Source: Actinoplanes ianthinogenes
GTDB lineage: Bacteria > Actinomycetota > Actinomycetes > Mycobacteriales > Micromonosporaceae
DNA: 64,000 nucleotides
Assembly (NCBI RefSeq): GCF_018324205.1
Contig: NZ_AP023356.1
Location: 2,046,001 to 2,110,000, forward strand
Direction of reading: 5' to 3'
Position 1 is the first letter of the stretch, and every line of letters begins with the position of its first letter. Positions 22,685 through 42,870 of this stretch are shown in pieces. Both the position numbers and the translations under genes were made by a program. The notes under the pieces were generated by a model. That model was given only the letters and a program-made list of their open reading frames with translations. It was not told the origin of the DNA and ran no database searches.

Positions 22685-22787
22685 GCGTGCTCTGTCATTT
22701 CTGATCCGGGTGGGTCATGGAGGTTTGGTTTCGCTCGCGAGGGGTATGCGCCGCATCTTCACCAGGCCTCTCGAGGAGATGCAGGCA

Positions 22788-23831
22788 GTGACTGAGTCGC
22801 TCGGGATGGCATTGGACCTGGCAGCGGAGATCCACCGGCTGACACCGAGCGGTGATCCGGCGCGAGACCTGGATTTCGTGTGGGATCCGATGAGCCGCCT
22901 GGTGCCGTTCGTGGCGAGCTGGATCGGCACGCTCGACGAGGATCACTGTGGTTACACCACGGTGGCGTCCGCGGGTCACGACCTGGATGGCCTGGCGTAC
23001 ATGGAATCGGCGGATCTGACCGCGCAGCGCAAGACGACCGGTCTGCTGCGGCGACGCCGGCCCGTGCGGTTGCAGGACGTGCCGAACGCGATGGAGTTGC
23101 CGTGCTGGTCCGAGCAGTGGTGGCCGATCGGCTTCCGGGAAGTCGTCGCGGCTCCGCTCGTCACACCGGATGGCCGCCACTTGGGTGTCCTGACCCTGCA
23201 CACCGACACCGCCGTCCAACCGACCGTGGATGCCCGGGACGCGATGGTGGTGATCGCGCACGCGATGACGGCCGTCCTGGACCCGATGAACTCGTTGAGC
23301 GGGCTGGCTCGGCTGGTGCAGGGCGCTGTCGCCGCCGCTGCCGTCGACCGGCGGGGCACCGTCGTCCCGCTGCCCGGGATGCCCTCCGATCCCTTGCTCA
23401 TCGGACGCCCCGACATCGTCACCACAGCGGTCGGCCATCTCAGCGACCAGGTGCGGCACACGTCCTTCCTCTTCCCGATCCCGGCGGACGGGGGCCAGCA
23501 GCGCTACATCCGGGTCACCGGACTCGCCTGCCCACCGGGCACGTCGGAGGAACCCGTCGGGCTCGTCGTGCTCTCGCCGGCGGGGGACCTTCGCGGTCTG
23601 ACGTTTCGCGAACTGGTCGTCCTCGGACTGGTGATCGAGGGGTACGCCAACCAGGGCATCGCGAGCCGGCTGTCCATCACCGCGCGGACCGCCGCCGCTC
23701 ACCTCGAACACATTCGAGCGAAGTTGAGCGCGCCGACGCGTACGGCCGCCGCTGTGCTCGCACTGCGCTCCGGCCTCTACGTCCCGTACGGCCTCGTGGA
23801 CAACGCGGGCCACGGCAGCGCCTCCTCGTGA
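22788..23831 (+). CDS. GAF-like sensor with C-terminal LuxR helix-turn-helix (paralog 1)
   Basis: The 347-residue regulator starts at a GTG preceded by GAGGAG and matches the start of its paralog at 36101. The N-terminal two thirds is a GAF-like sensor (LGVLTLHTDTAVQP near residue 140). The C-terminus LTFRELVVLGLVIEGYANQG then TARTAAAHLEHIRAKL is a LuxR-type DNA-binding domain ending LRSGLYVPYG. The paralog at 36101 is very similar, including WDPM-x2-LVPF, CWSE-x-WWP-x-GFRE and LDPMNSL. The sensor ligand is unknown; two Cys-Trp positions (PCWSEQWW) are conserved in both. Longer starts at 22710 are possible but lack a ribosome site. Confidence 0.8.
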   Translation: MTESLGMALDLAAEIHRLTPSGDPARDLDFVWDPMSRLVPFVASWIGTLDEDHCGYTTVASAGHDLDGLAYMESADLTAQRKTTGLLRRRRPVRLQDVPNAMELPCWSEQWWPIGFREVVAAPLVTPDGRHLGVLTLHTDTAVQPTVDARDAMVVIAHAMTAVLDPMNSLSGLARLVQGAVAAAAVDRRGTVVPLPGMPSDPLLIGRPDIVTTAVGHLSDQVRHTSFLFPIPADGGQQRYIRVTGLACPPGTSEEPVGLVVLSPAGDLRGLTFRELVVLGLVIEGYANQGIASRLSITARTAAAHLEHIRAKLSAPTRTAAAVLALRSGLYVPYGLVDNAGHGSASS

Positions 23832-25148: not shown

Positions 25149-26816
25149 CTACCGCTCGGCAGCGTGTCCGAACCTGGCCAGGTGGTCATGGATCAGGCGA
25201 ACGGCCATGGATCCCTCGCCGACCGCGGACGCGACCCGTTTGATCGAGCCGCTGCGGACGTCACCCACGGCGAGGACCCCGGGCCGGCTGGTCTCGAGCA
25301 TCACCGGCTGCGGCGCGTCGGTGCGCACCTGCGCTCCGGTCAGGACGTAACCGCGCTCGTCCAGGGCGACGCTGGACGCCAGCCAGCCGGTGCACGGCTG
25401 CGCCCCGATGAAGACGAACAACACCGTCGTCGGGAACTCCTGCCGCTCACCGGTTCTGGTGTCGCGTACGCCGAGCGCCTCCAGCCGGCCGTCGTCGCCG
25501 ATCAGCTCGGTGACCTCCGTGCGGCGCAGCAGCTCGACGTTGGGCAGTCGCTCGATCTGGTCGACCAGGTACCGGGACATGTCGCGGTTCAGGTCGTCGT
25601 GCCGGATGATCAGCCGTACCCGCGCGGCGTGCCGGGCGAGGAAGACCGTGGCCTGGCCGGCCGAGTTGCCGCCGCCGACGACCGTCACCGGCTGCCGCTC
25701 GCAGAAGACCGCCTCCATGAACGTGGCGGCGTAGTACACGCTGGTGCCCTCGAACTCCGCGAGGCGCGGCACGTCGAGTTTCCGGTACCGCGCGCCGGTG
25801 GCGATCACCACCGTCCGGGTCCGCAACCGTGCCCCGTCGTCGAGGTGCACCATCTGGTCGCTGTCGTGCCATTCGAGGCGAACCGCCTCGGCCGGCACGT
25901 TGAGTTCGGCGCCGAACTTCTTCGCCTGCACCACGGCACGGTCGGCCAGGTCGGCACCCGAGATACCGGCCGGGAAACCCAGGTAGTTCTCGATCCGGGA
26001 GGAGGTACCGGCCTGCCCGCCGGTGGCCACCGCGTCGAGGACGATCGTCGCGAGTCCCTCGGAGGCGCCGTACACGGCGGCGGCGAGGCCGGCCGGTCCC
26101 GCGCCGACCACGACGACGTCGCAGATCCTCTCGTCGTGGCCGGAGCGCCGCAGGCCGGCGACCCGGGCCAGTTCCGCGTTCGAGGGGTTGCGCAGCACCT
26201 TGTCCCGCCAGATCACCACCGGTGTGTCCGTCGGCCTGATGGACAGCCGATGCAACAGCTCCTCGGCGTCCGGATCCTCCTCCAGGTCGATCCAGGTGTG
26301 CGGCACCCGGTTGCGGGCGGCGAGTTCGCGCAGGCGGCGGGTGTCCGGGCTGAACCGCGAGCCGACGATCTTGATGCCGGTGATGCTGCCGATCAGCAGT
26401 TCCCGGCGGGTAAGGAAACTGCGCAGGATCAGGTTCCCGAGGTCGGGCTCCTCGCGGACCAGTTCGTGCAGCCCGGGCAGGGGCACCGCGAGAATCTCGC
26501 CCGGTTCCTGCGCGACCATCGAGACGAAGGACGGCTGGCCGGTGAGCAGGCCGAGCTCGTCGAGGAACCGGCGCGGGCCGTGCACCCGGACCGTCCGGGC
26601 CTTCGGGGTGCCGTACCCCTCGATCACCGCGACCGTGCCGGACAGCACGACGAGGAAGTCGCGGTCCCGCCGGCCCTCGGCGACAAGCACGTCGCCCGCC
26701 TGCACCGGCCGCTTCTCGCCGCGGCGGCTCAGCAGGCCGATCTGTTCGTCGGACAGGCGGGGATAGGCCCCGGCCACATCCGGCGTCTCGGCGAGCCGCT
26801 CCTGGTCCGGGTTCAC
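25149..26816 (-). CDS. Fusion: cyclic-nucleotide-binding domain + thioredoxin-like domain + thioredoxin-reductase-like flavoprotein without CxxC
   Basis: The 555-residue protein starts at GTG 26816, overlapping the thioredoxin stop (GTGA). Domains in order are a CRP-type cNMP-binding fold (about 20-135, GDVLVAEGRRDRDFLVVLSG), a thioredoxin/glutaredoxin-like fold without Cys (about 145-235, HTWIDLEEDPDAEELLHRLS), and an FAD/NADPH domain with VVVVGAGPAGLAAAVYG, GGQAGTSSRIENYLGFP, VVGGGNSAGQA and GVLAVGDVR. Where thioredoxin reductase has CATC, this protein reads YYAATF, so the redox-active dithiol is missing. It may reduce its partner by another route or act as a sensor. Operon position after thioredoxin and clpB points to redox or stress control of the chaperones. 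Confidence 0.85.
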   Translation of the reverse strand: MNPDQERLAETPDVAGAYPRLSDEQIGLLSRRGEKRPVQAGDVLVAEGRRDRDFLVVLSGTVAVIEGYGTPKARTVRVHGPRRFLDELGLLTGQPSFVSMVAQEPGEILAVPLPGLHELVREEPDLGNLILRSFLTRRELLIGSITGIKIVGSRFSPDTRRLRELAARNRVPHTWIDLEEDPDAEELLHRLSIRPTDTPVVIWRDKVLRNPSNAELARVAGLRRSGHDERICDVVVVGAGPAGLAAAVYGASEGLATIVLDAVATGGQAGTSSRIENYLGFPAGISGADLADRAVVQAKKFGAELNVPAEAVRLEWHDSDQMVHLDDGARLRTRTVVIATGARYRKLDVPRLAEFEGTSVYYAATFMEAVFCERQPVTVVGGGNSAGQATVFLARHAARVRLIIRHDDLNRDMSRYLVDQIERLPNVELLRRTEVTELIGDDGRLEALGVRDTRTGERQEFPTTVLFVFIGAQPCTGWLASSVALDERGYVLTGAQVRTDAPQPVMLETSRPGVLAVGDVRSGSIKRVASAVGEGSMAVRLIHDHLARFGHAAER

Positions 26817-27247
26817 GCCGCACTCCGCAAGAACTCGTCGGTCCAGCTGCGCAGGACCGCGGCGGGCGCGGCGCCCGCCCGGCGCGCCACCACCTTGCCG
26901 TCGCGCATCAGGATCAGCGTGGGTACGGCCTGGATCGTGAACCGCTCGGACACCTTGGGCGCCTTGTCCACGTCGACCTTGACCAGCTTGACCTTGCCGG
27001 CCAGGTCGCGGGCCACCTGTTCCAGCGCGGGACTGACCTGCCGGCACGGGCCGCACCAGGTCGCCCACATGTCCACCAGGACCAGGATGGTCGCCCGCTC
27101 GGCGACGTCACCGAAGTCGTCGTCGCCCGCCTCGGCGATCCAGGGCATCGGCTTGTGACAGTTGCCGCAGTGCGGGATGCCCTCGGCGGCCGGGAGGACC
27201 CGGTTCTTCTGCCCGCAGCTCGGGCACTCGATCACCTTGCTGCCCAC
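26813..27247 (-). CDS. trxC: Thioredoxin 2-like protein with N-terminal zinc ribbon
   Basis: The 144-residue protein has an N-terminal zinc ribbon (C8-x2-C11 and C27-x2-C30) and a thioredoxin domain with the active site W64-C65-G-P-C68 and cis-Pro in AVPTLI. This is the layout of thioredoxin 2 (TrxC), a cytosolic disulfide reductase whose zinc site responds to oxidation. It ends in a four-base overlap with the flavoprotein fusion and starts one base after the clpB stop region, so it belongs to the heat-shock operon. Because the flavoprotein lacks CxxC, its electron donor may be the housekeeping thioredoxin reductase, which is not in this window. Confidence 0.9.
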   Translation of the reverse strand: MGSKVIECPSCGQKNRVLPAAEGIPHCGNCHKPMPWIAEAGDDDFGDVAERATILVLVDMWATWCGPCRQVSPALEQVARDLAGKVKLVKVDVDKAPKVSERFTIQAVPTLILMRDGKVVARRAGAAPAAVLRSWTDEFLRSAA

Positions 27248-27248
27248 G

Positions 27249-29873
27249 TCACTCCTCCGGCGCCTGCTCGTAGGTGACGGTCAGCTCATCGTCGATCAGG
27301 TCCACCCGGATCACCGCGCCGTCCCGGGCGTCCCCGGCGAGCAGCGCCCGGCCGATACGGGTCTCCACCTCACGGGCGATGAAGCGGCGCAGCGGCCGGG
27401 CGCCGTACACCGGATCGAATCCCTGGCGGGCGATGAAGCGCTGTGCCTCGTCGGTGACCTGCAGCGTCATCCGCCGCTCGGCCAGCCGCTCGCGCAATTC
27501 GCTGAACATCAGGTCGACGATGCGCTCGATCTCCGGCTGGGTGAGCGGCTTGAACAGCACGATGTCGTCGGCACGGTTGAGGAACTCGGGCCGGAAGTGC
27601 CGCCGCAGCTCGCCCATGACCAGTTCGCGGCCCTCGGGCTTGATCTCACCGGCGTCGGAGATGCCTTCGAGCAGATACTGGGAGCCGATGTTCGAGGTCA
27701 TGATGATCACGGTGTTGCGGAAGTCGACGGTACGGCCCTGCGCATCGGTGAGACGCCCGTCGTCGAGCACTTGCAGCAGCGTGTTGAACACGTCCGCGTG
27801 CGCCTTCTCGATCTCGTCGAAGAGCACCACCGAGTACGGCTTGCGCCGGACCGCCTCGGTGAGCTGCCCGCCCTCTTCGTAGCCGACGTATCCGGGCGGC
27901 GCCCCGACCAGCCGGCTCACGGTGTGCCGCTCCTGATATTCGCTCATGTCGATCCGGACCATGTTGTCCTCGGTATCGAACAGCGCCGCGGCCAGCGTGC
28001 GGGCCAGCTCCGTCTTGCCGACTCCGGTGGGACCGAGAAAGATGAACGACCCGATCGGCCGGCGCGGGTTCTTGATGCCGGACCGGGCGCGGATGATCGC
28101 GTCGGTGACCGACTGCACGGCCTCGTCCTGTCCGATCACCCGCTCGTGCAGGATCTCGTCCAGGCGCAGCAGCTTCTGGCGTTCACCCTCGGTCAGCCGG
28201 CTGACCGGGATGCCGGTCCACCGGGAGACGATACCGGCGATCTCGGCCTCGGTGACGACCTCGCGGAGCAGCCGCTTGCCGCCCTGCTTCGCGGTGAGCC
28301 GCTCCTCCTCGGCCTGCAGCCGGCGCTCCAGCTCCGGTAACCGGCCGTGCCGCAACTCGGCGGCCCGGTTCAGGTCGTAGTCGCGTTCCGCCTGTTCCGC
28401 CTCGTGCCGGATCTGTTCGATCTCCCGGCGCAGGTCCTGGACTCTGCGCAGGGCCTGCCGCTCGGCGTCCCACTGGGCGCGCAGCGCGTCCACTTCGGCG
28501 CGCAGGTCGGCCAGTTCCTTGCGGAGCTGGTCGAGGCGGGCCAGGCTCGCCGCGTCCTCCTCTTTGGACAGGGCCGCTTCCTCGATCTCGAGGCGGGTCA
28601 GGCGCCGGGTGCGCTCGTCGAGTTCGGCCGGCATCGAGTCGATTTCGGTACGCAGCATGGCGCACGCCTCGTCGACCAGGTCGATCGCCTTGTCCGGAAG
28701 GAAACGGTCGGAGATGTACCGGCGGCTGAGGACCACCGCGGCGACCAGCGCCGCGTCTTGGATCTTCACGCCGTGGAAGACTTCCAGCCGTTCCCGCAGT
28801 CCGCGCAGGATCGAGATGGCATCCTCCTCGGTCGGCTCCTCGGCCAGCACCGGCTGGAAGCGGCGCTCCAGCGCCGCGTCCTTCTCGATGTGCTTGCGGT
28901 ACTCGTCCAGCGTCGTCGCGCCGATCATGTGCAGTTCGCCGCGGGCGAGCATCGGTTTGAGCATGTTGCCGGCGTCCATCGCGCCCTCGGAGCCACCCCC
29001 GGCGCCGACGATCGTGTGCAGCTCGTCGATGAACAGCAGGATCCGTCCCTCGGCGGCCTTCACCTCGGACAGCACGGCCTTGAGCCGTTCCTCGAACTCG
29101 CCGCGGTATTTCGCGCCGGCCACCAGGGAACTCATGTCCAGCGCGAACACCACCTTGTCCCGCAGTCCCTCGGGCACGTCGCCGTTGGTGATCCGCTGGG
29201 CCAGGCCCTCCACGATGGCGGTCTTGCCGACGCCCGGTTCACCGATGAGCACCGGGTTGTTCTTGGACTTGCGGGACAGGATCTGGATCACCCGGCGGAT
29301 CTCGCCGTCGCGCCCGATGACCGGGTCCATGGTGCCGGCGGCGGCGTCGGCGACCAGGTCGCGGCCGTACTTGGCCAGCGCCTCGTACGCGACCTCCGGC
29401 ATCGCCGAGGTCACCCGCTGGTTGCCTCGGATCTTCGTCAGCTCCTGGAGGAAGCCGTCCCGGGTGAGCCCCGCGTCGCTGAGCAACCGGCCGACGGTGG
29501 AGCTTCGGCCCTCCTGCAGCATGGCGATCACCAGGTGCTCGACGGAGACGTACTCGTCCTTGAGCCGTTTCGCCTCGCGCTCGGCGGCGTCGAACAGCCG
29601 GGCCAGCCGCTGGGTGACGAATACCTGACCGGGTGCGGCGCCAGGTCCACTGACCCGGGGACGCCGGTCCAGTTCCGCCTCCACCTGGTCCCGTAGCTTG
29701 TCCGGGTCGACGCCGGTCGCCGAGAGCAGCCTGGGCACCAGCCCGTCCGGCTGCTCGATCAGGGCGAGCAGCAGGTGCTCGCCGTCGACCTCGGCGTGGC
29801 CGTACCGCAGCGCCTTGGTCTGGGCATCGTGCAGGGCCTCCTGCGATTTCTGGGTCAGCCGGTTCAGGTCCAC
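27249..29873 (-). CDS. clpB: ClpB protein disaggregase
   Basis: The 874-residue HSP100 ATPase has all ClpB parts: an N-domain ([20 protein letters not shown]), first AAA+ module with GEPGVGKT and [12 protein letters not shown], the coiled-coil middle domain ([20 protein letters not shown]), and second AAA+ module with GPTGVGKT and [11 protein letters not shown]. Pore loops KYRGEFEER and [11 protein letters not shown] are intact. It pulls proteins out of aggregates with DnaK. The GTG start at 29873 lies within the end of cbpM, preceded by GGAGG. Its place behind dnaK-grpE-dnaJ-cbpM suggests the full bichaperone system is made from one transcript. Confidence 0.97.
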
Positions 29874-30193
29874 GATCTGCCTCCGGTGCGTCGAGAGGTC
29901 GTGACACGAAGTTCGTGCTCGAGGGCGGCCACGCGGTCGAGCAGGTCGATCACGAGGCCGAGGGCGGCATAGTTGACGCCCAGGCCGGCGCGCAGGCGGC
30001 GGACGCGGGCAAGAGCGAGCACCTGATCACGGCCGAACCACAGGTTGCCGGCGTCGTCGCGTTCGGGGTCCAGGATGCCCAGCGTGACGAGCCGCTGGAC
30101 CATCTCCGGGTGCACGTCGCCGGAATGACAGAACGCGGTCAAGCTCTGACGGCCGAGCGTCTGCCCTGACGCCCGGACGAGGGGGTAGGTCAT
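29864..30193 (-). CDS. cbpM: CbpM-like chaperone modulator (MerR-like fold)
   Basis: The 109-residue protein has the MerR/CbpM helix pattern: [40 protein letters not shown], then [26 protein letters not shown]. CbpM binds the J-domain of CbpA and inhibits it. The gene sits directly after the DnaJ/CbpA gene (ATGA overlap) as in other cbpA-cbpM pairs. In many actinobacteria the repressor HspR occupies this place. HspR is longer and has a typical N-terminal MerR helix-turn-helix, which is not recognised here, so the operon may lack its own HspR. Confidence 0.78.
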
Positions 30194-31149
30194 TGCTGCC
30201 TCCGCGGGTCGAAGGTGGAGACCGCGGCGAGTTGCTCGAACAACCGCCGTTCCTCGTCGGACGGTTTCGGCGGGACCAGGATCCGGACCTCGGCGTACAG
30301 GTCACCCGGCCGGCCGCGGGGGTCGGGCAGGCCCCGTCCCTTGAGCCGCAACCGCCGGCCGCTGGACGTGCCCGGGGGAACCCGGACCTTTCCCTCGCCG
30401 CCGGGTGTGTCGACGGCGACGGAGGCGCCGAGTGCGGCCTCCCACGGCGCCAGCGGCAGGGTGACGGTGATGTCCCGTCCGTCGACCCGGTACCGCGGGT
30501 GCGGTGCCAGCCGCACCACAAGGTAGAGGTCACCGGCCGTGGCGCCGTCGCTGCCGCGGCCGCCCTGGCCGCTCAGCCGGATCCGCTGGCCGTCGGTGAC
30601 CCCGGGCGGAATCGTCACGTCGAGCGTGCGGCTGCCGTCCGGGCCGGACAGCGTGACGGTCCGGTGACCGCCGGCGTACGCCTCCTCGACCGGCAGTTCG
30701 ATCTCGGCCTCCTGGTCCGCGCCCGGCACAGGGCCGAAGCGGCCGCCGCCGCGACCGCCGAACATGCCGCCGAACATGCTCTCCAGGTCGATGTCCTGGA
30801 AGCCACCGGACCAGGTGTAGGCCTGCTCCGCAGGACCGCCGCCGCGGCGTGTCTGTCCACCGCCGCGAGCCCCGGCGCCCGCCCGCGCGCGTGCCCAGGC
30901 CTGCTGATCCATGTCCGGCGGCACCTGGCGGAAGTCCGGGCCGAAGGCGTCGTAACGCCGCCGCTGCTCCGGGTCGGAGAGCACGTCATACGCCTCGGAG
31001 ATGTCCTTGAACCGGTCCTCCGCGCCCGGATCCTTGTTGACGTCCGGGTGATAGGTCCGGGCCAGTTTGCGATACGCCCGCTGGATGTCGTCGGTGCTGA
31101 CATCTCTGGCGACGCCCAGCGTGTCGTAGAAGTCGCGGGCCGGCGCCAT
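30190..31149 (-). CDS. cbpA: J-domain co-chaperone, CbpA-type (DnaJ without zinc finger)
   Basis: The 319-residue protein has an N-terminal J-domain (DFYDTLGVARDVSTDDIQRA, with HPD in RTYHPDVNKD), a Gly/Phe- and Gly-Arg-rich linker (about 90-135), and two DnaJ C-terminal substrate-binding domains (RTLDVTIPPGVTDGQRIRLS, VRVPPGTSSGRRLRLKGRGL). The Cys-rich zinc finger of classical DnaJ is missing, so it is a type II/CbpA protein. It stimulates DnaK ATPase and delivers substrates. The ATG at 31149 follows the grpE TGA directly, and the stop overlaps cbpM by four bases. Confidence 0.92.
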   Translation of the reverse strand: MAPARDFYDTLGVARDVSTDDIQRAYRKLARTYHPDVNKDPGAEDRFKDISEAYDVLSDPEQRRRYDAFGPDFRQVPPDMDQQAWARARAGAGARGGGQTRRGGGPAEQAYTWSGGFQDIDLESMFGGMFGGRGGGRFGPVPGADQEAEIELPVEEAYAGGHRTVTLSGPDGSRTLDVTIPPGVTDGQRIRLSGQGGRGSDGATAGDLYLVVRLAPHPRYRVDGRDITVTLPLAPWEAALGASVAVDTPGGEGKVRVPPGTSSGRRLRLKGRGLPDPRGRPGDLYAEVRILVPPKPSDEERRLFEQLAAVSTFDPRRQQ

Positions 31150-31692
31150 TCAGGATCCCTTAGCCACGACCACCGCGGCGGGCCGCAGCGGACGCTCGTC
31201 GGTGCCGTAACCGGGCCGGACCACCTGCAGGATCGTGCCCGGCGCGGCGCCGGTGGCCGGCAGCACCGCCACCGCCTCGTGCCGGCTCGGGTCGAACGGC
31301 TCGTTCAGGTCGGCGCGCAGCGGATAACCCAGGTCGGCGAGGACGGAGAGTGCCTGCTGGCGGACGGCCTCCAATCCCGAAATGATCGACGCCGGTTCAG
31401 CGGTGGCGTGCTGCAGGGCGAGTTCCAGGTTGTCGAGGACGGGCAGCCATCGGGCCGCCACCCGGGCCCGCTCGTCCTCGCGCTCCCGGTCGACGTCGCG
31501 CGCCATCCGCTTACGCAGGTTGTCGTAGTCGGCCACCGCCCGCCGGTAGCGCTCGTCCGACTGGGCCAACTGGGCACGCAGCTCCGCGGTCTCGTCACGG
31601 GCCTGCGGGGCCGTACCGTCAGCGGCCGGTTCCGGCGGGCCGGACGGTGCGGCCGCACCGGTTGCTGCCGGCTCCCGTTCCTGATCGGTCAT
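31150..31692 (-). CDS. grpE: GrpE nucleotide exchange factor
   Basis: The 180-residue protein has a disordered acidic N-terminus (about 1-35), the long coiled coil (ETAELRAQLAQSDERYRRAV, NLRKRMARDVDREREDER) and the beta-domain ending ILQVVRPGYGTDERPLRPAA, the GrpE signature V-x2-GY. It releases ADP from DnaK. It lies seven bases downstream of dnaK and abuts the CbpA start. The sequence is more Ala/Arg-rich than typical housekeeping GrpE proteins, in line with an additional stress-specific copy. Confidence 0.93.
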   Translation of the reverse strand: MTDQEREPAATGAAAPSGPPEPAADGTAPQARDETAELRAQLAQSDERYRRAVADYDNLRKRMARDVDREREDERARVAARWLPVLDNLELALQHATAEPASIISGLEAVRQQALSVLADLGYPLRADLNEPFDPSRHEAVAVLPATGAAPGTILQVVRPGYGTDERPLRPAAVVVAKGS

Positions 31693-31698
31693 CGCCGG

Positions 31699-33585
<1,887 letters not shown>

Positions 33586-33697
33586 GACTCTCTCTCCTCC
33601 AACATCGCGGGTGGGTTTGAGATATCCGGGAGCCGTGTCGCCCGGCATGCACACGTGATCGCCGGCTCCCTGTTTTCACCACACCAGCAGCCGCTAC

Positions 33698-33731
33698 GGG
33701 TGTCGATTGGCAGATCTGCCAATCGACACCC
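33698..33731. promoter_or_regulatory. Perfect 34-base palindrome between dnaK and the BON gene (operator O1)
   Basis: The half-site GGGTGTCGATTGGCAGA (33698-33714) is followed directly by its exact reverse complement (33715-33731). The core is TTGGCA-GATC-TGCCAA. Related sites occur at 33758 and 35949. Symmetry of this length is typical for a dimeric regulator; the position allows control of both divergent transcripts. Confidence 0.8.
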
Positions 33732-33757
33732 CTCGGCAGCCCGGCTACGGCCACGGA

Positions 33758-33773
33758 TCGGCAGTCCTGCCAA
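33758..33773. promoter_or_regulatory. Second operator copy (O2)
   Basis: TCGGCA-GTCC-TGCCAA matches the O1 core with one changed base, and its right flank TGCCAATCGACA is identical to O1. The centres of O1 and O2 are 51 bases apart, about five helical turns. Confidence 0.7.
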
Positions 33774-33865
33774 TCGACAAATCCCCGGCCGCGTTGGTGG
33801 GATCGAGACAGAACACGACCCCACGACGTGGGCGAGTGCGCTCGGATGAGAGTCGGAGGACCGGG

Positions 33866-34543
33866 ATGACCAGCACAGTAACCCCTCATACAGATGAGGA
33901 CATCCAGCGTGAGGTGCTCCTCGAGCTGAAGTGGGACGCCGGGATCGCGCCGAACGAGATCGGCGTGTCCGTCCGGGACGGGGTGACGACGCTGACCGGC
34001 TCGGTGGACACGTTCAGCAGGAAGTGGGCCGCGGAACGCGCGGCGCTTCGTGTCCGCGGGGTCAAGGCCGCTGTCAACAACATCGAGGTACGCCTGAGCC
34101 CCGGTCACGAGCAGACCGACGTCGCCCTGGCCCGATCCATCACGCAGGCGCTCGAGATGGACTCCCTCGTACCCGACGACCGGGTGAAGATCTCGGTGTC
34201 CGGCGGCTGGGTCACCTTACGCGGCGAGGTGGACTGGGACTACCAACGGCAGGAGGCGGAACGGGTGGTCCGGTACCTCACCGGCGTCATCGGCGTCGGC
34301 AACCACATCACCGTGCGGCCGAGTAGCGGCCCGTCGCCCGAGGACCTCCGGACGAGGATCGAGGACGCCCTGATCCGTACGGCCGAGACGGACGCGGAAC
34401 GGATCCACGTCACCGCCGAGGGCAGCAAGGTGATCCTGACCGGGAGCGTACGGTCATGGGCGGAGCGCCGCGAGGCCGAACGCGTCGCCTGGTCGGCGCC
34501 CGGCGTCACCGATGTGGAGAACCTGATCGCGGTCAACCCGTGA
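33866..34543 (+). CDS. Triple BON-domain protein
   Basis: The 225-residue cytosolic protein (no signal peptide) contains three BON domains, at about residues 10-78, 85-150 and 155-225. Each has the G-x-V-x-L-x-G-x-V pattern: [40 protein letters not shown] and [20 protein letters not shown]. The pattern then closes with a GVxxVxNxIxV strand. Such proteins resemble OsmY/hyperosmotic-stress proteins and are often induced in dormancy or stress, possibly binding membranes or phospholipids. The ATG at 33866 follows GGAGGA. It diverges from dnaK across the O1/O2 operators, implying common control. Confidence 0.88.
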
Positions 34544-34553
34544 TCCGTACGTC

Positions 34554-34588
34554 CGCCGCGGTGCTCGTCGGAGGCGGGCACCGCGGCG
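34554..34588. terminator. Hairpin between the BON gene and the convergent zinc-finger gene
   Basis: CGCCGCGGTGC pairs perfectly with GCACCGCGGCG around a 13-base loop. It can terminate from both sides. Confidence 0.75.
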
Positions 34589-34607
34589 CCTGGATGTGCC
34601 GTTCCGG

Positions 34608-34862
34608 TCAGACCAACGTCTCGTCCACGTAGCACCAGCGCCAGTTCTCGCCGGGCTCGAACGACTGGACGATCGGATGGCCCACGGCGTGCGCGTGCGC
34701 CCGCGCGTGCCGCAGCGGTGACGAGTCGCAGCAGCCGACCTGCCCACAGGTCAGGCACAGCCGCAGATGCACCCACGCGGTGTTCAGGCGCAGGCATTCA
34801 CCGCAGCCTTCCGGCGTCTGCGGCACAACCGACTGAATCATGTCGAGGTGTGGGTCGGGCAT
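34608..34862 (-). CDS. UBP-type zinc finger protein
   Basis: The 84-residue protein is a single zf-UBP domain: C-G-E-C (CGECLRLN), LCLTCGQVGCCDSS, then RHARAHAHAVGHPIVQSFEP and NWRWCYVDETLV. The Cys/His order matches the ubiquitin C-terminal-binding zinc finger of eukaryotic deubiquitinases, which occurs as a stand-alone protein in many actinobacteria with unknown role. It is followed upstream on the same strand by the PrsW gene with a 15-base gap, so both may be co-transcribed. Confidence 0.88.
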   Translation of the reverse strand: MPDPHLDMIQSVVPQTPEGCGECLRLNTAWVHLRLCLTCGQVGCCDSSPLRHARAHAHAVGHPIVQSFEPGENWRWCYVDETLV

Positions 34863-34877
34863 ACGGGTGGTCCCTTC

Positions 34878-35825
34878 TCAGCGTCCGGCGCCGTGCCACG
34901 ACGGCGGGACGGGGATCGGCGGGGCGACGCGCTCGAACCGAGCCGACCGGCGCCACAGGACGACCAGCCAGACGATCCCGATGAGCGAGATGACCGCCAG
35001 GCCGGCCCATTGCATGCCGGAGAACAGATTGACCTGCTCCGTGCTCGGCTCGACCAGCCAGCCCTGCTGCGACGGGACCAGCCGCTCCCCCTCGGTCAGC
35101 AGCATGGTCAGGTACAACGCGATGCTGTCCATCGAATCCCACAGACCGTGCAGGACGGACACCCCGAGGTACGCCAGGATCAGCTTGCCCGTGATGGCGA
35201 TCCGGCCGTGCCGCGAAGTGGCGAACAGGATCCCGCCCAGAATCGCGGTCCAGAGGCCGTGTCCCACCGGCGCCAGCAGGCCCCGGATCAGCTCGGTCTG
35301 CACCAGCTGGACGATGGACAGCCCGTCGACGGTGAAGAGGGCGGTGAAGGCGTAACCGGCGGACTCGAAGGCGGCGAAGCCGAATCCGACGGCCGCACCG
35401 AGGATCATCCCGTCGCGCAGCGACCGGGTTCGCAGGTGACGGGTCAGCACGATCAACGCGACGAGCTTCACCGCTTCCTCGATCAGCCCCACGCCGAGGA
35501 ACAACCACGGCGACGGGTACAGCAGGTACGCCTCGAGCACCGACGCGCCGAGCACACCGAGGACGCCGCCGGTGAGGAACGTCGAGAGCACCAGGCCCGC
35601 GGTCAGTTCGCCGGTGTCCCGGCGTTCGAACGCCCACGCGACGAAGGTCACCGGCACGAGGAAACTGCCGAGCAGGACCAGGGTGGGTATCAGATTGGCA
35701 TTGCCGGTGAGAAAGGTGACCACCACCGTGACCAGCCAGAGCGCCAGGCCGACGAGGAAGATCCGCAGCCACGTCCGGCCTGTCTGCCGCGGGACGCCCT
35801 CCTGGACACGTTCGATCCCGACCAC
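34878..35825 (-). CDS. PrsW-family intramembrane metalloprotease
   Basis: The 315-residue membrane protein has about eight helices and the PrsW/CPBP-like motifs EEAVK (GVGLIEEAVKLVALI), FAAFES, HGLWTAILG and HGLWDS. In the family the Glu pair and the histidines form the metal site. PrsW cleaves anti-sigma factors in Bacillus; the target here is unknown, although several regulators are nearby. The GTG at 35825 was chosen because AGGAGG lies six bases upstream; a reading from 35942 would add unrelated residues. The divergent GAF-LuxR gene and operator O3 lie upstream. Confidence 0.85.
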   Translation of the reverse strand: MVGIERVQEGVPRQTGRTWLRIFLVGLALWLVTVVVTFLTGNANLIPTLVLLGSFLVPVTFVAWAFERRDTGELTAGLVLSTFLTGGVLGVLGASVLEAYLLYPSPWLFLGVGLIEEAVKLVALIVLTRHLRTRSLRDGMILGAAVGFGFAAFESAGYAFTALFTVDGLSIVQLVQTELIRGLLAPVGHGLWTAILGGILFATSRHGRIAITGKLILAYLGVSVLHGLWDSMDSIALYLTMLLTEGERLVPSQQGWLVEPSTEQVNLFSGMQWAGLAVISLIGIVWLVVLWRRSARFERVAPPIPVPPSWHGAGR

Positions 35826-35948
35826 CGCGAACCTCCTGTCAGCTATGACCGATCGTGGGTGACGCATAACGCGGTCCGTCAGGGGGTGTGATCGCACCCG
35901 CGGCACATCCGGTACCTCAGAATTACCGTGTCCGGCGGTCACCGTCGA

Positions 35949-35964
35949 TTGGCATCATTGCCAA
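35949..35964. promoter_or_regulatory. Third operator copy (O3) before GAF-LuxR paralog 2
   Basis: TTGGCA-TCAT-TGCCAA, with left flank GTCGATTGGCA identical to O1 over 11 bases, is 136 bases upstream of the GTG at 36101. It lies between the divergent prsW and GAF-LuxR genes, so it may control one or both. Confidence 0.75.
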
Positions 35965-36100: not shown

Positions 36101-37165
36101 GTGACCGAGTTGCTAGCGGTGGCGTTGGAGCTCGCGGCAGCGATCAACCGGGTGACACCGGCCACCGACAATCCGGCAGAGGATCTGGCATTCATGTGGG
36201 ATCCGATGAAACGGCTCGTTCCGTTCGCAGCCGGGTGGGTCGGCACGCTCGACGGGGATCAGAGCCGCTACACCACGGTCACCTCGGTCGGCCACGACCG
36301 GGTGAGCCGCGCGTACATGGGATCGGAGGAACTGACGGAACTGAGGAAGAAAGTGGGTCTGCTGCAGCGACACCGACCCATGCGCCTGCAGGACGCTCCG
36401 CCGCGCACGGTGGAGCTGCCGTGCTGGTCCGAGCACTGGTGGCCGGCGGGATTCCGCGAAGGCGTCGCCGTCCCGCTCGTCACTCCGGACGGCCGCCACC
36501 TGGGCGTCCTCGGGCTGCACACGGACACGGCAAGCCAGCCGACCGCCGAGGCCCGGGACGCGATGGGTGCGATCGCGCCCACGGTCACCGCCGTTCTGGA
36601 CCCGATGAACTCGTTGGCCGGGCTGGCGCGGCTGATCCACGGCGCAACCGCCGCCGTCGCCGTCGACTGCCGAGGCGCCGTCACCCCGCTGCCCGGGATG
36701 GAGACCGATCCCCTGCTCACCCGATGTCCCGACGTCGTGCCCACAGCGGTCGACGGTTTGACGGAGCGGGTCCGATACACGGCGTTCCTCTGCCCGATCC
36801 GGGAGGATGACGGCCGGGAGCGCTACGTCCGGGTCACCGGTCTCGCCTGTCCGCCGGGCACGTCGGACGACCTCGTAGGACTCGTGGTGATCTCGCCGGC
36901 TGACGACCTCTGCGCGTTGACGCTCCGGGAACTGGTCGTTCTCGGCCTGGTGATCGAGGGGCACGCCAACCAAGGCATCGCCGCGCGCCTGTTCATCACC
37001 GCACGGACCGCCGCGGCTCACCTCGAACACATCAGGACCAAGCTGCGCGCACCCACGCGTACCGCCGCCGCGGTGCTGGCGATGCGCCGTGGGCTGTACA
37101 TCCCGTACCGGATCATCGATGTACGGACTGGCACGTCGCGTGCGGTGCCGGTCAGCGCCGGTTAG
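36101..37165 (+). CDS. GAF-like sensor with LuxR helix-turn-helix (paralog 2)
   Basis: The 354-residue regulator starts at GTG 36101, seven bases after GAGGAGG (MTELLAVALELAAAINRVTP). Domain order equals that of paralog 1 at 22788: GAF-like sensor, then LTLRELVVLGLVIEGHANQG and TARTAAAHLEHIRTKLRAPT. The two proteins match in most positions. Operator O3 lies in its promoter and two related sites lie in the dnaK/BON region, so it is the best local candidate for the protein binding them, possibly with autoregulation. This is inference. Confidence 0.8.
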   Translation: MTELLAVALELAAAINRVTPATDNPAEDLAFMWDPMKRLVPFAAGWVGTLDGDQSRYTTVTSVGHDRVSRAYMGSEELTELRKKVGLLQRHRPMRLQDAPPRTVELPCWSEHWWPAGFREGVAVPLVTPDGRHLGVLGLHTDTASQPTAEARDAMGAIAPTVTAVLDPMNSLAGLARLIHGATAAVAVDCRGAVTPLPGMETDPLLTRCPDVVPTAVDGLTERVRYTAFLCPIREDDGRERYVRVTGLACPPGTSDDLVGLVVISPADDLCALTLRELVVLGLVIEGHANQGIAARLFITARTAAAHLEHIRTKLRAPTRTAAAVLAMRRGLYIPYRIIDVRTGTSRAVPVSAG

Positions 37166-37229
37166 ACGTGCCGGACCGGTTCACGACAGGTAGGGTGAAT
37201 CTGGATCAAGCCGCCGCGAATGGGGCCCG

Positions 37230-38264
37230 ATGGTGTTGGACCTGCCACCACATGCCGCCGAGGTCGCCATGGAGGTGACCGCACTGGCGGATCTGCCGGC
37301 GAGCCCCGCGGAGCGCGCGGAGGCGATCCTGGACCCGCTTCGCCGAGTGATCCCGTTCCAGGCCGTCCGGATCGCATTGCTCGATCCCGAGGCGCGCCGG
37401 CACGACTTGCTGAGCTGTCATGGGTACGACGACCACATCCGTGCCTACATGACCACCTCGGAGGACTACGACGAGATCGAGTCGCTGGGCCTGCACGGGA
37501 CTACGCCGCTCCGTGTCCACGACTTCCCGGTGCCCGCGGAGGAGATCCGCAGCTGGGTGGAGCTGTTCCGGCCGGCCGGATTCGTGGAGGGTGTGGGTGT
37601 CGGTCTGATCACCCGTGAGGGCCGGCAGGTCGGCTTCCTGGGACTCAACACCGACAGTCCGGCACACCCCAGCCCGGCCGCGTGCAATCTGGTGCGGCTG
37701 CTGGCCCCCACCATCGCGTACGCGGTGGATCCGCTCCGCTCACTCGCGGTGCTGGCCCGGATCGTCCGGGGAATGACCGCCGCCACGGTGCTCACCATGT
37801 CCGGCGGGACGCTGGCCCTTCCCGGGCTGCCGACGCATCCGCTACTGACGGCGAAGCCGGCCGTCCTCCAGACGGCGGTCGCGCACCTCGGCGGAAAGCC
37901 GGACTACGCCACATTCCTGACACCGTACGACCAGCCGCCGGCCGAAGCCGGACATGCCCGGATCACGATTTTCGGATGCGACAGCCGGACCCCGCGTCAT
38001 CTGCGAGCCGTCGTCGCCGTGAGCCCACCGGGCGACCTGCGTGGACTGACCGGAACCGAGCTGGAGATCCTGGGCGCGCTCATCGACGGTGCGACAGCGG
38101 CGTCCATCGCCGTCGCGAGGGGCATCCCGGTCCCGATCGTCGACGCGCACCTCGACAGCATCCGGATCAAACTCGCCGTCCCGGACCGGATCACGGCCGC
38201 CCTGCGCGCCGCGCGGGAGGGCCTCTACGTCCCGGCCAAGCTGGCCGCCGCCGCCCGGCCGTAA
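37230..38264 (+). CDS. GAF-like sensor with degenerate LuxR helix-turn-helix (paralog 3)
   Basis: The 344-residue protein shares the layout of paralogs 1 and 2 (ILDPLRRVIPFQAVRIALLD, GRQVGFLGLNTDSPAHPS, YAVDPLRSLAVLARIVRGMT, and the end REGLYVPAKL). Its DNA-binding region is diverged: LTGTELEILGALIDGATAAS and VPIVDAHLDSIRIKLAVPDR replace the clear TARTAAAHLEHIR recognition helix of the others, so specificity should differ. It starts 64 bases after paralog 2 on the same strand and could be co-transcribed. ATG at 37230 is the start used. Confidence 0.75.
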   Translation: MVLDLPPHAAEVAMEVTALADLPASPAERAEAILDPLRRVIPFQAVRIALLDPEARRHDLLSCHGYDDHIRAYMTTSEDYDEIESLGLHGTTPLRVHDFPVPAEEIRSWVELFRPAGFVEGVGVGLITREGRQVGFLGLNTDSPAHPSPAACNLVRLLAPTIAYAVDPLRSLAVLARIVRGMTAATVLTMSGGTLALPGLPTHPLLTAKPAVLQTAVAHLGGKPDYATFLTPYDQPPAEAGHARITIFGCDSRTPRHLRAVVAVSPPGDLRGLTGTELEILGALIDGATAASIAVARGIPVPIVDAHLDSIRIKLAVPDRITAALRAAREGLYVPAKLAAAARP

Positions 38265-38355: not shown

Positions 38356-41300
38356 TCACTGACCGGATGAGGCGCTCTGGGTGAGCCACCGCTCGATGCA
38401 GGCGAGCAGATCCTCGGCGTCGACCGGCTTGGTCACGTAGTCGCTGGCGCCCGACGAGATGCTCTTCTCCCGGTCGCCGTGCATCGCTTTCGCGGTCACG
38501 GCGATGATCGGCAGGTTCGCGTACTTGGGCATGGCGCGGATGGCGGCGGTGGCGGCGTAGCCGTCCATCTCGGGCATCATGACGTCCATCAGGATCAGGT
38601 CGATGTCGTCGTGCTGGGCGAGCACGTCGATGCCCTTGCGGCCGTTCTCGGCGTAGACGACCTCCATCCCGTGCAGTTCCAGGATGTTGGTCAGCGCGAA
38701 CACGTTGCGGGCGTCGTCGTCGACCACCAGGACCTTGCGGCCGGCCAGGTTCTGCGCGATGCCGGAGACGCCGGCGATCGTGTCGATGCGCATCGGTGGT
38801 GGCATCACCGGGTAGCCGGCCTCGGTCGACAGGTGCAGGGTGATCCGCTCGCGCAATTCGTCCAGGCTCGACAAGGACTCCAGCGGCCGGGTCTGCGCGA
38901 GCGCCTGCAACAGGGTGTCGTTGCCCGGCGGCGCCTGCTGGTTACGGAACACCAGCACCGGCAGCTCACGCAGCTCCGCCTCGTCGTGCAGCGCTTTGAG
39001 GAAATTCGGGCCGCTGTCGGCCGGCATGTTCAGATCCATCACGACCGCGTGGAACGGCTGTGCGCGTAGCTGTCCGATGGCCTCGGCCGAGTCGACCGCC
39101 GTCAGCACGTCGATCGGTCCCTGGGTCTGGGTCACCGCCGCAGCGGCGCCCCGAGCGATCAGTGTCAGCAGCCCTTCGGCATTGTTCTCCACGACCAACA
39201 GCCGCCGGGGGCCGTCCAGTTCGACGAGCGGCGCCATCTCCGAGGCGGGCAGCGCCGGCGCCATGGGCGCCGCGGGCACGGTGGCCCGCTGGACCGGCAT
39301 GTAGAGGGTGAAGGTGCTGCCCTGCCCGAGCACACTCTGGGCGGCGATCTCACCGCCGAGCAGCCAGGCGATCTCGCGGCTGATGGACAGGCCGAGGCCG
39401 GTGCCGCCGTAGCGGCGGCTGGTGGTGCCGTCGGCCTGCTGGAAGGCGTCGAAGATCGCGGTGAGTTGCTGTTCGGCGATGCCGATGCCGGTGTCGGTCA
39501 CCCGGAAGGCGATCACCGTGTCCTGCTCGGCCAGCGCCGGGGACAGCTCGTCGGGCCGGGCGCGGTCGATGCGTAGCCGGACACCGCCCTGTTCGGTGAA
39601 CTTGACCGCGTTGGAGAGCAGGTTACGCAGAACCTGGCGCAGCCGTTGCTCGTCGGTGAACAGCCCGGCCGGAACGTCGGCGGCGGTGGTCACCTCGAAG
39701 TCGAGGTTGCGGGAGGTGGTCAGCGGCCGGAACGTCGCCTCGACGTAGCCGAGCAGGTTGCGCAGCTCGAACGCCTCCGGCGCGATGTCCATCTTGCCGG
39801 CCTCGACCTTCGACAGGTCCAGGATGTCGTTGATCAGCTGCAGCAGGTCGGTGCCGGCCGAGTGGATCACGGTCGCGTATTCGACCTGCTTGGCGGTCAG
39901 GTTCCGGTTCGGGTTCTGCGCCAGCAACTGCGCGAGGATCAACAGCGAGTTCAGCGGCGTACGCAATTCGTGGCTCATGTTGGCCAGGAACTCCGACTTG
40001 TACTTCGAGGCGAGCGCGAGCTGCTGGGCGCGGGCCTCGAGTTCCTGGCGGGCCTGTTCGATCTCGGAGTTCTTCGTCTCGATGTCGCGGTTCTGCCGGG
40101 CCAGCAGCGACGCCTTGTCCTCCAGCTCGGCGTTCGAGCGCTGCAACTCTTCCGAGCGGGCCTGCAGCTCCTCCGAGCGGGCCTGCAGCTCGGCGGCGAG
40201 CCGCTGTGACTCGGTGAGCAGCACGTCGGTACGGGCGTTGGCGACCATCGTGTTCACGTTGACCCCGATGATCTCCATCAGCTGGTCCAGGAAATCGTGG
40301 TGCACCTGCAGGAACGGCGTCATGGCGGCCAGCTCGATGACACCCAGCGCCTGGTCCTCGACCAGGATCGGGACCACGACCACCTGCATCGGAGCCAGCG
40401 AGCCGAGGCTGGAGGAAACGGTGAAGTACTCCGCGGGCATCTCGTCGACCACGATGCGCCGTTTCGCCACGGCGGCCTGACCGACCAGGGACTCGCCGAG
40501 GGCGTATCGCCGGCCGGCCCCCTGGTGTCCGTAAGTGCCGACCACACGCAGGTCCGCGCTCGGGCCGATGTCGTCGACCAGCAGGAACGTGCCGAGCTGC
40601 GCGCCGACCAGGGGGACCAGTTCGTTCATCACCAGGGAGGCGACGACTTCGAGGTCCCGGTGGCCCTGCATGAGGGACGAGATGCGGGCCAGGTTGGTCT
40701 TGAGCCAGTCCTGTTCCTGGTTGGCCCGGGTGGTCTCGCGCAGCGACTCCACCATGAAGTTGATGTTGTCCTTGAGCTCGGCGACCTCACCCGAGGCGTC
40801 CACCGTGATCGAGCGGGTCAGGTCGCCGGTGGCCACGGCGCTGGTCACCTCGGCGATGGCACGGACCTGACGGGTCAGGTTCCCGGCGAGCTCGTTGACG
40901 TTCTCGGTGAGCCGCTTCCACGTACCGGAAACGCCTTCGACCTCGGCCTGACCGCCCAACCGGCCCTCGCTGCCGACCTCCCGGGCCACCCGGGTGACCT
41001 CCGCGGCGAAACTGGACAGCTGATCGACCATCGTGTTGATGGTGGTCTTGAGTTCCAGAATCTCGCCGCGCGCGTCGACGTCGATCTTCTTCGTCAGATC
41101 ACCCTGCGCGACGGCGGTGGTCACCTGGGCGATGTTGCGGACCTGGCCGGTGAGGTTGTTCGCCATCGAGTTGACGTTGTCGGTCAGGTCCTTCCACGTC
41201 CCGGCCACGTTCGGCACCCGAGCCTGGCCGCCGAGCTGCCCCTCGGTGCCCACCTCACGGGCCACGCGGGTCACCTCGTCGGCGAACGCGGACAGGGTGT

Positions 41301-42870
41301 CGACCATCGTGTTGATCGTCTGCGCCAGGACGGCGACCTCGCCCTTGGCCTCGACGGTGATCTTGCGGCTCAGGTCGCCCTGGGCCACCGCCGTGGCGAC
41401 CAGCGCGATCGAGCGCACCTGGTTGGTCAGGTTGGAGGCCATCACGTTGACGTTGTCGGTGAGGTCCTTCCAGGTGCCGCCGACGTTGAGCACCCGTGCC
41501 TGGCCACCGAGACGGCCCTCGGTGCCGACCTCGCGGGCCACCCGGGTCACCTCGTCGGCGAACGCGGACAGCTGGTCGACCATCGTGTTGATGGTCTCCT
41601 TCAGCTCGGCGATCTCACCACGGGCGTCGACCCGGATCTTCTGGGTCAGATCACCGCGGGCCACGGCGGTGGTCACCTCGGCGATGCTGCGCACCTGAGC
41701 GGTCAGGTTGTCACCCATGACGTTGACCGACTCGGTGAGGTCCTTCCACGTGCCGGAGACACCCTTGACGTCGGCCTGGCCACCGAGACGGCCCTCGGTG
41801 CCGACCTCCCGGGCCACCCGGGTCACCTCGTCGGCGAAGCTGGAGAGCTGGTCCACCATCGTGTTGATGGTGTTCTTCAGCTCGAGGATCTCGCCCCGGG
41901 CGGTCACCGTGATCTTCTGCGACAGGTCGCCACGAGCCACCGCCGTGGCTACCTGCGCGATGCTGCGGACCTGGTCGGTGAGGTTGCCGGCCATCGAGTT
42001 CACCGAGTCGGTCAGGTCGCGCCAGGTGCCCGCGACGCCGCTGACCTGGGCCTGCCCGCCGAGCCGGCCGTCGGTGCCGACCTCGCGGGCCACCCGGGTC
42101 ACCTCGTCGGCGAAGCTGGAGAGCTGGTCGACCATCGTGTTGATGGTGCTCTTGAGTTCGAGGATCTCGCCGCGCGCGTCGACGGTGATCTTCTGCGACA
42201 GGTCACCGCGGGCCACGGCCGTGGTCACCTGGGCGATGTTGCGGACCTGGTTGGTGAGGTTGCCGGCCATGAAGTTCACCGAGTCGGTCAGGTCACGCCA
42301 GGTCCCGGCGACGCCGGGCACCTCGGCCTGCCCGCCGAGCCGGCCCTCGCTGCCGACCTCGCGAGCCACCCGGGTCACCTCGTCGGCGAAACTCGACAGC
42401 TCGTCGACCATCGTGTTGATGGTGTTCTTCAGTTCGAGGATCTCACCGCGTACGTCGACGGTGATCTTCTGCGACAGGTCGCCGCGGGCGACCGCGGTGG
42501 CGACCTGCGCGATGTCGCGGACCTGGTCGGTGAGGTTGCCGGCCATCGCGTTCACCGAGTCGGTGAGGTCCTTCCAGGTGCCGGAGACCCCCGGCACCTC
42601 CGCCTGCCCACCGAGCTGGCCTTCCGTGCCGACCTCCCGGGCGACCCGGGTCACCTCGGAAGTGAACAGCGACAGCTGGTCCACCATGCCGTTGAAAACC
42701 GTGGCGATCTCCCCGAGCAGGCCGTCACCGTCGTCGGGCAGACGGGTGCCGAAGTCACCGTCGCGGACAGCGGTCAGCCCAGCCAGCAACTGCCGCAGGT
42801 CACGGTCGGCCACCGCCGGACTCGCCACCACACCGGCCGCGGAATCGTGCATGGGCACATCGTTGCTCAC
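38356..42870 (-). CDS. Cytosolic hybrid histidine kinase with an eight-unit HAMP array, GAF, and two receiver domains
   Basis: The 1504-residue protein has no transmembrane helix. It starts with a HAMP-like unit and then seven 92-residue repeats, each containing [12 protein letters not shown]-x-[19 protein letters not shown]-x-IA and [14 protein letters not shown]. Next come a GAF domain, a coiled coil ([20 protein letters not shown]), HisKA with [14 protein letters not shown], HATPase with DTGIGI and GTGLGLSIS, a receiver-like domain lacking a clean phosphosite context (VVMDLNMP), and a classical receiver ([13 protein letters not shown]). This is the layout of Nik1/group III osmosensing kinases. 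The GTG at 42870 follows GGAGAG. Signal and partner are unknown; the convergent GAF-LuxR genes are neighbours. Confidence 0.9.
40770..42700. repeat. Seven tandem 276-bp units encoding HAMP modules
   Basis: Corresponding positions recur every 276 bases (for example near 42611 and 42335). Units are similar but not identical, with more divergence at the 40.9 kb end. They are coding repeats, not a CRISPR array. Confidence 0.9.

Follow-up and report, generated by a model that had tools for sequence, protein, structure and literature searches.

The chromosome of Actinoplanes ianthinogenes carries a long palindrome in the gap between dnaK and a gene for a BON-domain protein, which raises the question of which regulator acts at this locus and which genes it serves. 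The stretch analysed, hereafter the window, is 64,000 nucleotides (nt) long (contig NZ_AP023356.1, positions 2,046,001 to 2,110,000), and positions below are those of the window. An earlier note on this DNA had proposed an operator present three times, serving one regulator, perhaps a GAF-LuxR protein encoded nearby, that would couple chaperones, the BON protein and the regulator's own gene. We find that the motif tracks GAF-LuxR genes and their recognition helix RTxAAH across related genomes, which supports a single regulator of this type as the candidate binder. From these sequence comparisons it is probable that a GAF-PAS-LuxR protein binds the sites and governs a local regulon.

Three palindromic sites in the window

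The palindrome at 33698-33731 (site A, without strand) is perfect and gapless over 34 base pairs (bp), as had been described, with a 16-bp core at 33707-33722 (TTGGCAGATCTGCCAA). It is the longest of the window, where the runner-up measures 18 bp, and the longest found across 60 order-1 Markov windows was 24 bp. The two further copies reported are real as well. Site B (33758-33773, plus strand) faces the BON gene, has one mismatch in its 16-bp core and preserves just one of its two outer arms, while site C (35949-35964, minus strand) faces prsW, also lies 144 nt ahead of the GAF-LuxR gene, has a perfect core and preserves the outer arm on the side opposite to that of site B. A search of Rfam at its gathering threshold, covering 18 kb of the window and three further loci, gave no match.

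The repetition had been called very unlikely to arise by chance, which is too strong for the window taken on its own. With two mismatches allowed, the core TTGGCA-N4-TGCCAA occurs there three times against 0.95 expected, and as 7 of 100 shuffles also reach three, this modest count would not convince by itself. Genome-wide the claim holds, since the exact core has two copies in 9.9 Mb, both of them in the window. Allowing one mismatch yields seven places, three of which are sites A, B and C, compared with six for the reversed control, but adding flanks sharpens the result. With up to two mismatches, CGATTGGCA-N4-TGCCAATCG gives three genome sites, all in the window, and none for the reversed control, while the one-sided form TTGGCA-N4-TGCCAATCGAC gives sites A-C and one place inside the genome's other dnaK gene, with one match for its control.

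Distribution and targets of the motif

We then turn to relatives, where G numbers denote genomes (G000 being that of the window), L numbers denote individual loci, family names are from Pfam and genes were called by a simple codon-usage script, so that some starts may be off, as for dnaK in L057. The exact core was found in 9 of 67 genus genomes with 19 matches, five of the nine having more than one, whereas the reversed core gave nine single matches in nine genus genomes, making the bare core only moderately specific. We set aside G019 and G061, whose exact cores have poor flanks and no surrounding island and look like chance. The flanked motif performed better (29 sites in 13 of the 67 genomes, 25 of them in nine genomes, against six for the reversed control), and TTGGCA-N4-TGCCAATCGAC at one mismatch picked out 19 of 354 family genomes, with 41 strand matches at 38 places against four in the control. 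Across a sample of the order (397 genomes, 318 outside the family) this motif occurred in five genomes including G000, compared with three for the reversed control; G365, from another family, has three matches within 8.5 kb, and G382, G536 and G619 have one each. A weight matrix built from 34 sites was run over 59 loci totalling 1.18 Mb and exceeded 13 bits at 66 places, the reversed matrix at one; the 66 include the 34 sites used for training, there is overlap between some loci, and many loci had been selected by the motif.

Rather than being scattered, the motif is clustered before the same stress genes in relatives. A site precedes dnaK in seven genomes (G000, G011, G017, G037, G044, G046 and G056), prsW in six (G000, G011, G037, G044, G046 and G056), the BON gene in two (G000 and G037) and a gene for a LAL regulator in four (G044, G046, G056 and G062), with further sites before amylase-like, ADH, sigma-STAS and other genes. 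From site centre to prsW start the distance is 131, 131, 132, 131, 131 and 138 nt in the six species, and this near-constancy points to prsW as the main target of site C. The coupling of chaperones and BON protein proposed earlier thus gains from the sites before dnaK, BON and prsW in relatives; the part concerning the regulator's own gene is weakened, and it is less certain that site C also controls the GAF-LuxR gene, though it may. The dnaK and prsW sites of G011 are 2.7 Mb apart, and the latter would need to be served in trans. The spacer bases are partly specific to the target, being GATC before dnaK in four of seven cases, ATGA before prsW in five of six, and GTCC before BON and LAL genes in all six. 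The far outer arm of site A differs in G037 and G044, both of which keep the core before dnaK; judged from this comparison, the predicted conserved operator is the 16-bp core, and the perfection over 34 bp is not conserved. Sites at L057:19586, L060:16268 and L149:14651 precede a conserved open reading frame (ORF) of 141 amino acids (MSRR..R...).

These placements bear on whether the palindromes might be a repeat element, a terminator or a product of chance. Its perfect symmetry over 34 bp might let site A fold into a hairpin, and both the modest excess in the window and the genus-wide ratio of exact cores to reversed cores leave some room for chance. Against this, no copies of the element lie elsewhere in the genome, 50 of the 51 sites of at least 20 bits are located between called genes, and positions and spacer bases are conserved for each target gene, making such an origin extremely improbable.

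A GAF-LuxR protein as candidate binder

Counting GAF-LuxR relatives at E <=1e-30, we found them in 43 of the 354 family genomes, and the motif was present in 12 of these 43 compared with 7 of the 311 others (Fisher's test, 6e-8, ignoring kinship). Seven of the eight genomes with at least two motif places have a GAF-LuxR gene, the exception being G350. The 70 GAF-LuxR rows amount to 68 distinct genes, as L072 repeats L108, and 15 of the 68 starts have a site of at least 24 bits within 170 nt upstream; the remaining upstream regions reach 11.8 bits at most, and the reversed matrix 7.2 bits. Four of these 15 genes had contributed to the training set, and one more belongs to a locus retrieved through the motif; the other ten, from five genera, have neither tie.

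The recognition helix largely follows the same division. In site-bearing loci it mostly reads RT[AV]AAH.EHI, and in a siteless clade RTA[VI]GH; an alignment of the regions upstream of seven genes of that clade, in which a motif of its own was sought, consisted mostly of what reads as neighbour-gene coding sequence and showed no palindrome by eye. Among 39 loci chosen by their GAF-LuxR gene, a site of at least 20 bits was present in 12 of the 14 with RTxAAH but in 2 of the 25 without it (p 1.8e-6, ignoring kinship). Site-bearing proteins fall in more than one part of the protein tree.

The window holds three GAF-LuxR genes, as had been stated, all on the plus strand: 22746-23831, 36101-37165 and 37269-38264. 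The helix of the protein from 36101 is shared by that from 22746 (RTAAAHLEHI), whose gene has no site upstream, while that of the 37269 protein has diverged. We regard 36101-37165, which adjoins site C, as the best candidate for the predicted binder among the three. The two paralogues are labelled by their resemblance to the 36101 protein, as their Pfam scores fall below the cut-offs (for 37269, GerE 21.4 against 23.5 with no GAF hit listed; for 22746, a GAF part of 25.4 against 28.6). Tandem arrays of two to four GAF-LuxR genes occur in L109, L112, L114 and L116 as well as in the window (36101-38264), with the helix kept in some members and diverged in others, and heterodimers of such tandem proteins are conceivable.

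Two other regulators encoded near sites could be the binder. HspR is a regulator of actinobacterial dnaK operons, and an HspR-like gene of the MerR_2 family (29864-30193, minus strand) sits within the dnaK operon that is preceded by a site, so the palindromes could be diverged HAIR operators. As noted earlier for the dnaK region, neither HAIR nor CIRCE was found in the window at up to three mismatches. Furthermore, an orthologue of the HspR-like protein above 60% identity was found in 7 of 13 genomes tested, while the site-bearing G028, G058 and G062 have none (at most 36% over part of the protein, or no hit). In genus g34, where HspR itself was not searched for, sites precede GAF-LuxR and no gene of the dnaK cluster is labelled as a neighbour. 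Likewise, the LAL (MalT-TPR-GerE) regulator bears a GerE domain and its gene is preceded by a site in the four species named above, yet orthologues above 55% identity occur in only 5 of the 67 genus genomes (G011, G044, G046, G056 and G062), none being present in G000, G037, G017, G028 or G058, and in G365 an insertion interrupts the LAL gene although the sites persist. Both proteins were rejected as universal binder on their distribution over the genomes compared (13 for the HspR-like protein, 67 for LAL); binding by the HspR-like protein is very improbable, and by LAL slightly more so.

Promoter-like architecture and proposed mode of action

When sites were oriented with the matrix, TCGAC[AG] lay on one side of the core, usually the one that faces the target. 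The conserved unit comprises the 16-bp core and, on a single side, this TCGAC[AG], which resembles a -35 element. A second conserved block lies 37-48 nt from the first core base, and its 12-column score was reached by none of 2000 randomly shifted sets (18 representatives, each standing for a cluster of similar downstream sequences). In the window the putative -35-like and -10-like elements are TCGACA at 33701-33706 and the block at 33674-33685 facing dnaK (minus strand), TCGACA at 33774-33779 and the block at 33795-33806 facing BON (plus strand), and TCGACG at 35943-35948 and the block at 35916-35927 facing prsW (minus strand). This pattern would fit a -35 and a -10 element separated by 17-18 nt, the centre of the core falling near -42, and the two outer arms of site A would then resemble -35 elements, one for each direction.

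On this basis the three palindromes would be operators of one dedicated local regulon within a transferable stress island. The GAF-PAS-LuxR one-component regulator encoded at 36101-37165, perhaps with its 22746 paralogue, would bind as a dimer occupying the 16-bp core TTGGCA-N4-TGCCAA, next to the -35-like hexamer TCGAC[AG] and with the -10-like block 17-18 nt further on. From its place at about -42 the dimer would activate transcription once the GAF/PAS part senses its signal.

In Streptomyces, PAS-LuxR regulators use a 16-bp palindrome-like site in the -35 region (PMC9774167), and by analogy with their placement activation is somewhat probable here. The same GAF-LuxR protein could instead bind as a repressor released by stress, a variant that shares in the likelihood of the GAF-LuxR binder. 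The sites overlap the presumed -35, where repressors also act; PAS-LuxR regulators with 16-bp sites in that region are described as activators (PimM), and repression seems unlikely.

Several observations weigh against a GAF-LuxR activator at these sites. Three of the 12 helix loci with a site had fed the matrix (L065, L066 and L067), and without them 9 of 11 helix loci have one. The helix occurs without a site of 20 bits in L069 and L136, and a site without the helix in L104 and L129, while in genus g30 the GAF-LuxR genes (L111, L117 and L118) have upstream scores of only 7.8-11.8 bits at the same distance. At E 1e-30 or better no GAF-LuxR protein is found in G350, with its two places, or in G024, whose one site (34.6 bits) precedes an amylase gene, nor was one found in G033, G270, G275, G278 and G323, each with a single match. 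One of the 12 genomes positive for both, G039, has its sole match on another contig than the GAF-LuxR gene, and this match looks like chance. In G365 a nearby LuxR protein has the helix RTVAAHLEHI, but the match spans residues 144-347 only and its GAF part may be incomplete. As to the promoter, even the strongest column of the -10-like block is weak when taken singly (p 0.02), and at 13 of the 15 sites adjacent to a GAF-LuxR gene the promoter-like side points away from that gene; in eight such loci (L104, L109, L110, L112, L113, L114, L116 and L121) there is no called gene on that strand within 1.5 kb.

The outward side does have a called gene within 190 nt in the window, G011 and G343 (L108). 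In six loci of genus g34 it opens instead onto a gap of about 180-325 nt followed by the end of an opposite-strand gene. Here, about 140 nt downstream of the outward-facing site beside GAF-LuxR, lies a conserved hairpin, GGAGGGCGCGC-loop-GCGCGCCCTCC, present with the exact pattern in five loci (L109:11507, L110:5864, L112:12210, L113:12225 and L116:12425) and as a variant in L114, with further variants in L121 and L104. No conserved open frame was seen in this g34 stretch, which may be a small RNA, or only the terminator of the opposite gene or a two-way terminator.

Domains of the candidate regulator

Pfam identified GerE and GAF_2 (28.9 bits, cut-off 28.6) in the 36101 protein, with no Response_reg and no PAS hit. 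In the predicted structure (pLDDT 89, pTM 0.81) residues 1-166 form a GAF domain, 184-266 a region whose strands and helices follow one another in PAS-like fashion, and about 272-335 a GerE helix-turn-helix (HTH). The HTH profile matches structures of DosR (1zlj, 1zlk) and NarL, and the N-terminal part weakly matches the NLH1 regulator domain (E 5e-4). Among the 50 Foldseek matches listed, most were phytochromes at low TM, together with VqmA, and the PAS-like label is accordingly our reading of the model. Cys250 is nearly invariant across 40 aligned proteins and is a possible redox residue.

Organisation of the stress island

Leftward from the palindromes on the minus strand run dnaK (31699-33585), which is one of two copies in the genome by Pfam and by comparison with the other copy, grpE (31150-31692), a DnaJ/CbpA-like co-chaperone gene (30190-31149), the HspR-like gene, clpB (27249-29873) and a thioredoxin gene (26813-27247) that takes its label from a relative in G037. 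To the right lie the BON gene (33866-34543, plus strand), whose product has three BON domains, and prsW (34878-35825, minus strand), encoding a PrsW-family membrane protease. Between them is a short ORF missed by the gene script (34608-34862, minus strand; 84 amino acids, rich in Cys and His), which we take to resemble a UBP-type zinc finger. Adjoining the GAF-LuxR pair, 38356-42870 encodes a very large sensor with about eight HAMP repeats, GAF, histidine kinase and receiver.

The G365 island contains dnaK (90%), BON, LAL, PrsW (81%) and ADH (94%) together with four sites of at least 35 bits. With the helix RTVAAHLEHI in the LuxR protein nearby, it speaks for a GAF-LuxR binder outside the family too. 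Such high identity across families suggests that the stress island has been horizontally transferred. At L149:16881-17806 the LAL gene of this island is interrupted by some 0.9 kb of extra DNA resembling an insertion sequence.

Comparison with known systems

The regulator is of a known type. Like the PAS-LuxR (PimM type) proteins it combines a sensor domain with a C-terminal GerE HTH and lacks a receiver. A PAS-like region follows the GAF domain in the model but gave no Pfam PAS hit, and the sequence block would be consistent with sites in the -35 region. PAS-LuxR proteins of the PimM type are not known to have a GAF domain. Their operator, CTVGGGAWWTCCCBAG, differs from TTGGCAGATCTGCCAA and from the 34-site consensus core TTGGCA-N4-TGCCAA, and their targets are antibiotic clusters rather than a stress island. 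DevR/DosR of Mycobacterium and OsdR of Streptomyces share the HTH class and a similar stress and dormancy gene content, but are response regulators with a receiver, where the window protein has GAF and PAS-like parts. VqmA of Vibrio, a one-component protein with PAS and LuxR HTH, is not known to have a GAF domain and serves an unrelated regulon; its structure 6kju matched the model (E 3.4e-6, TM 0.24-0.33). The OsdR site is a 16-nt palindrome, AGGGCCGATCGGCCCT (PMC5069765), and the half-site here differs from the consensus given there.

The window shares the gene order dnaK-grpE-dnaJ-hspR-like-clpB with HspR/HAIR systems, but at up to three mismatches has neither HAIR (CTTGAGT-N7-ACTCAAG) at its dnaK nor the CIRCE element of HrcA systems. 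The genome's other dnaK (59% identical; L141:1443, about 4.81 Mb) does have a candidate HAIR-like site upstream, ATTGAGT-N7-ACTCAAC, with two mismatches, and comparing the two upstream regions points to an apparent change of regulator at the window copy. A literature search that included few subscription journals found no paper on the motif strings, which does not show novelty in print; we consider the predicted operator and regulon to be new.

We tentatively picture a transferable island with its own GAF-PAS-LuxR switch and private operator, in which a second dnaK-clpB operon has left HspR/HAIR control and come under one regulator with the genes for PrsW, BON, sugar enzymes and a sigma-STAS factor, and in which the outward promoter of the sister genus g34 leads to a possible regulated small RNA. 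This would be an apparent move of a chaperone operon to a regulator of the island's own. At one mismatch the one-sided motif has no match in 304 of the 311 family genomes lacking the regulator, a specificity that would allow the regulon to be predicted in other genomes of the group. The island is common to large soil actinobacteria, and a testable operator and regulator are now proposed for it.

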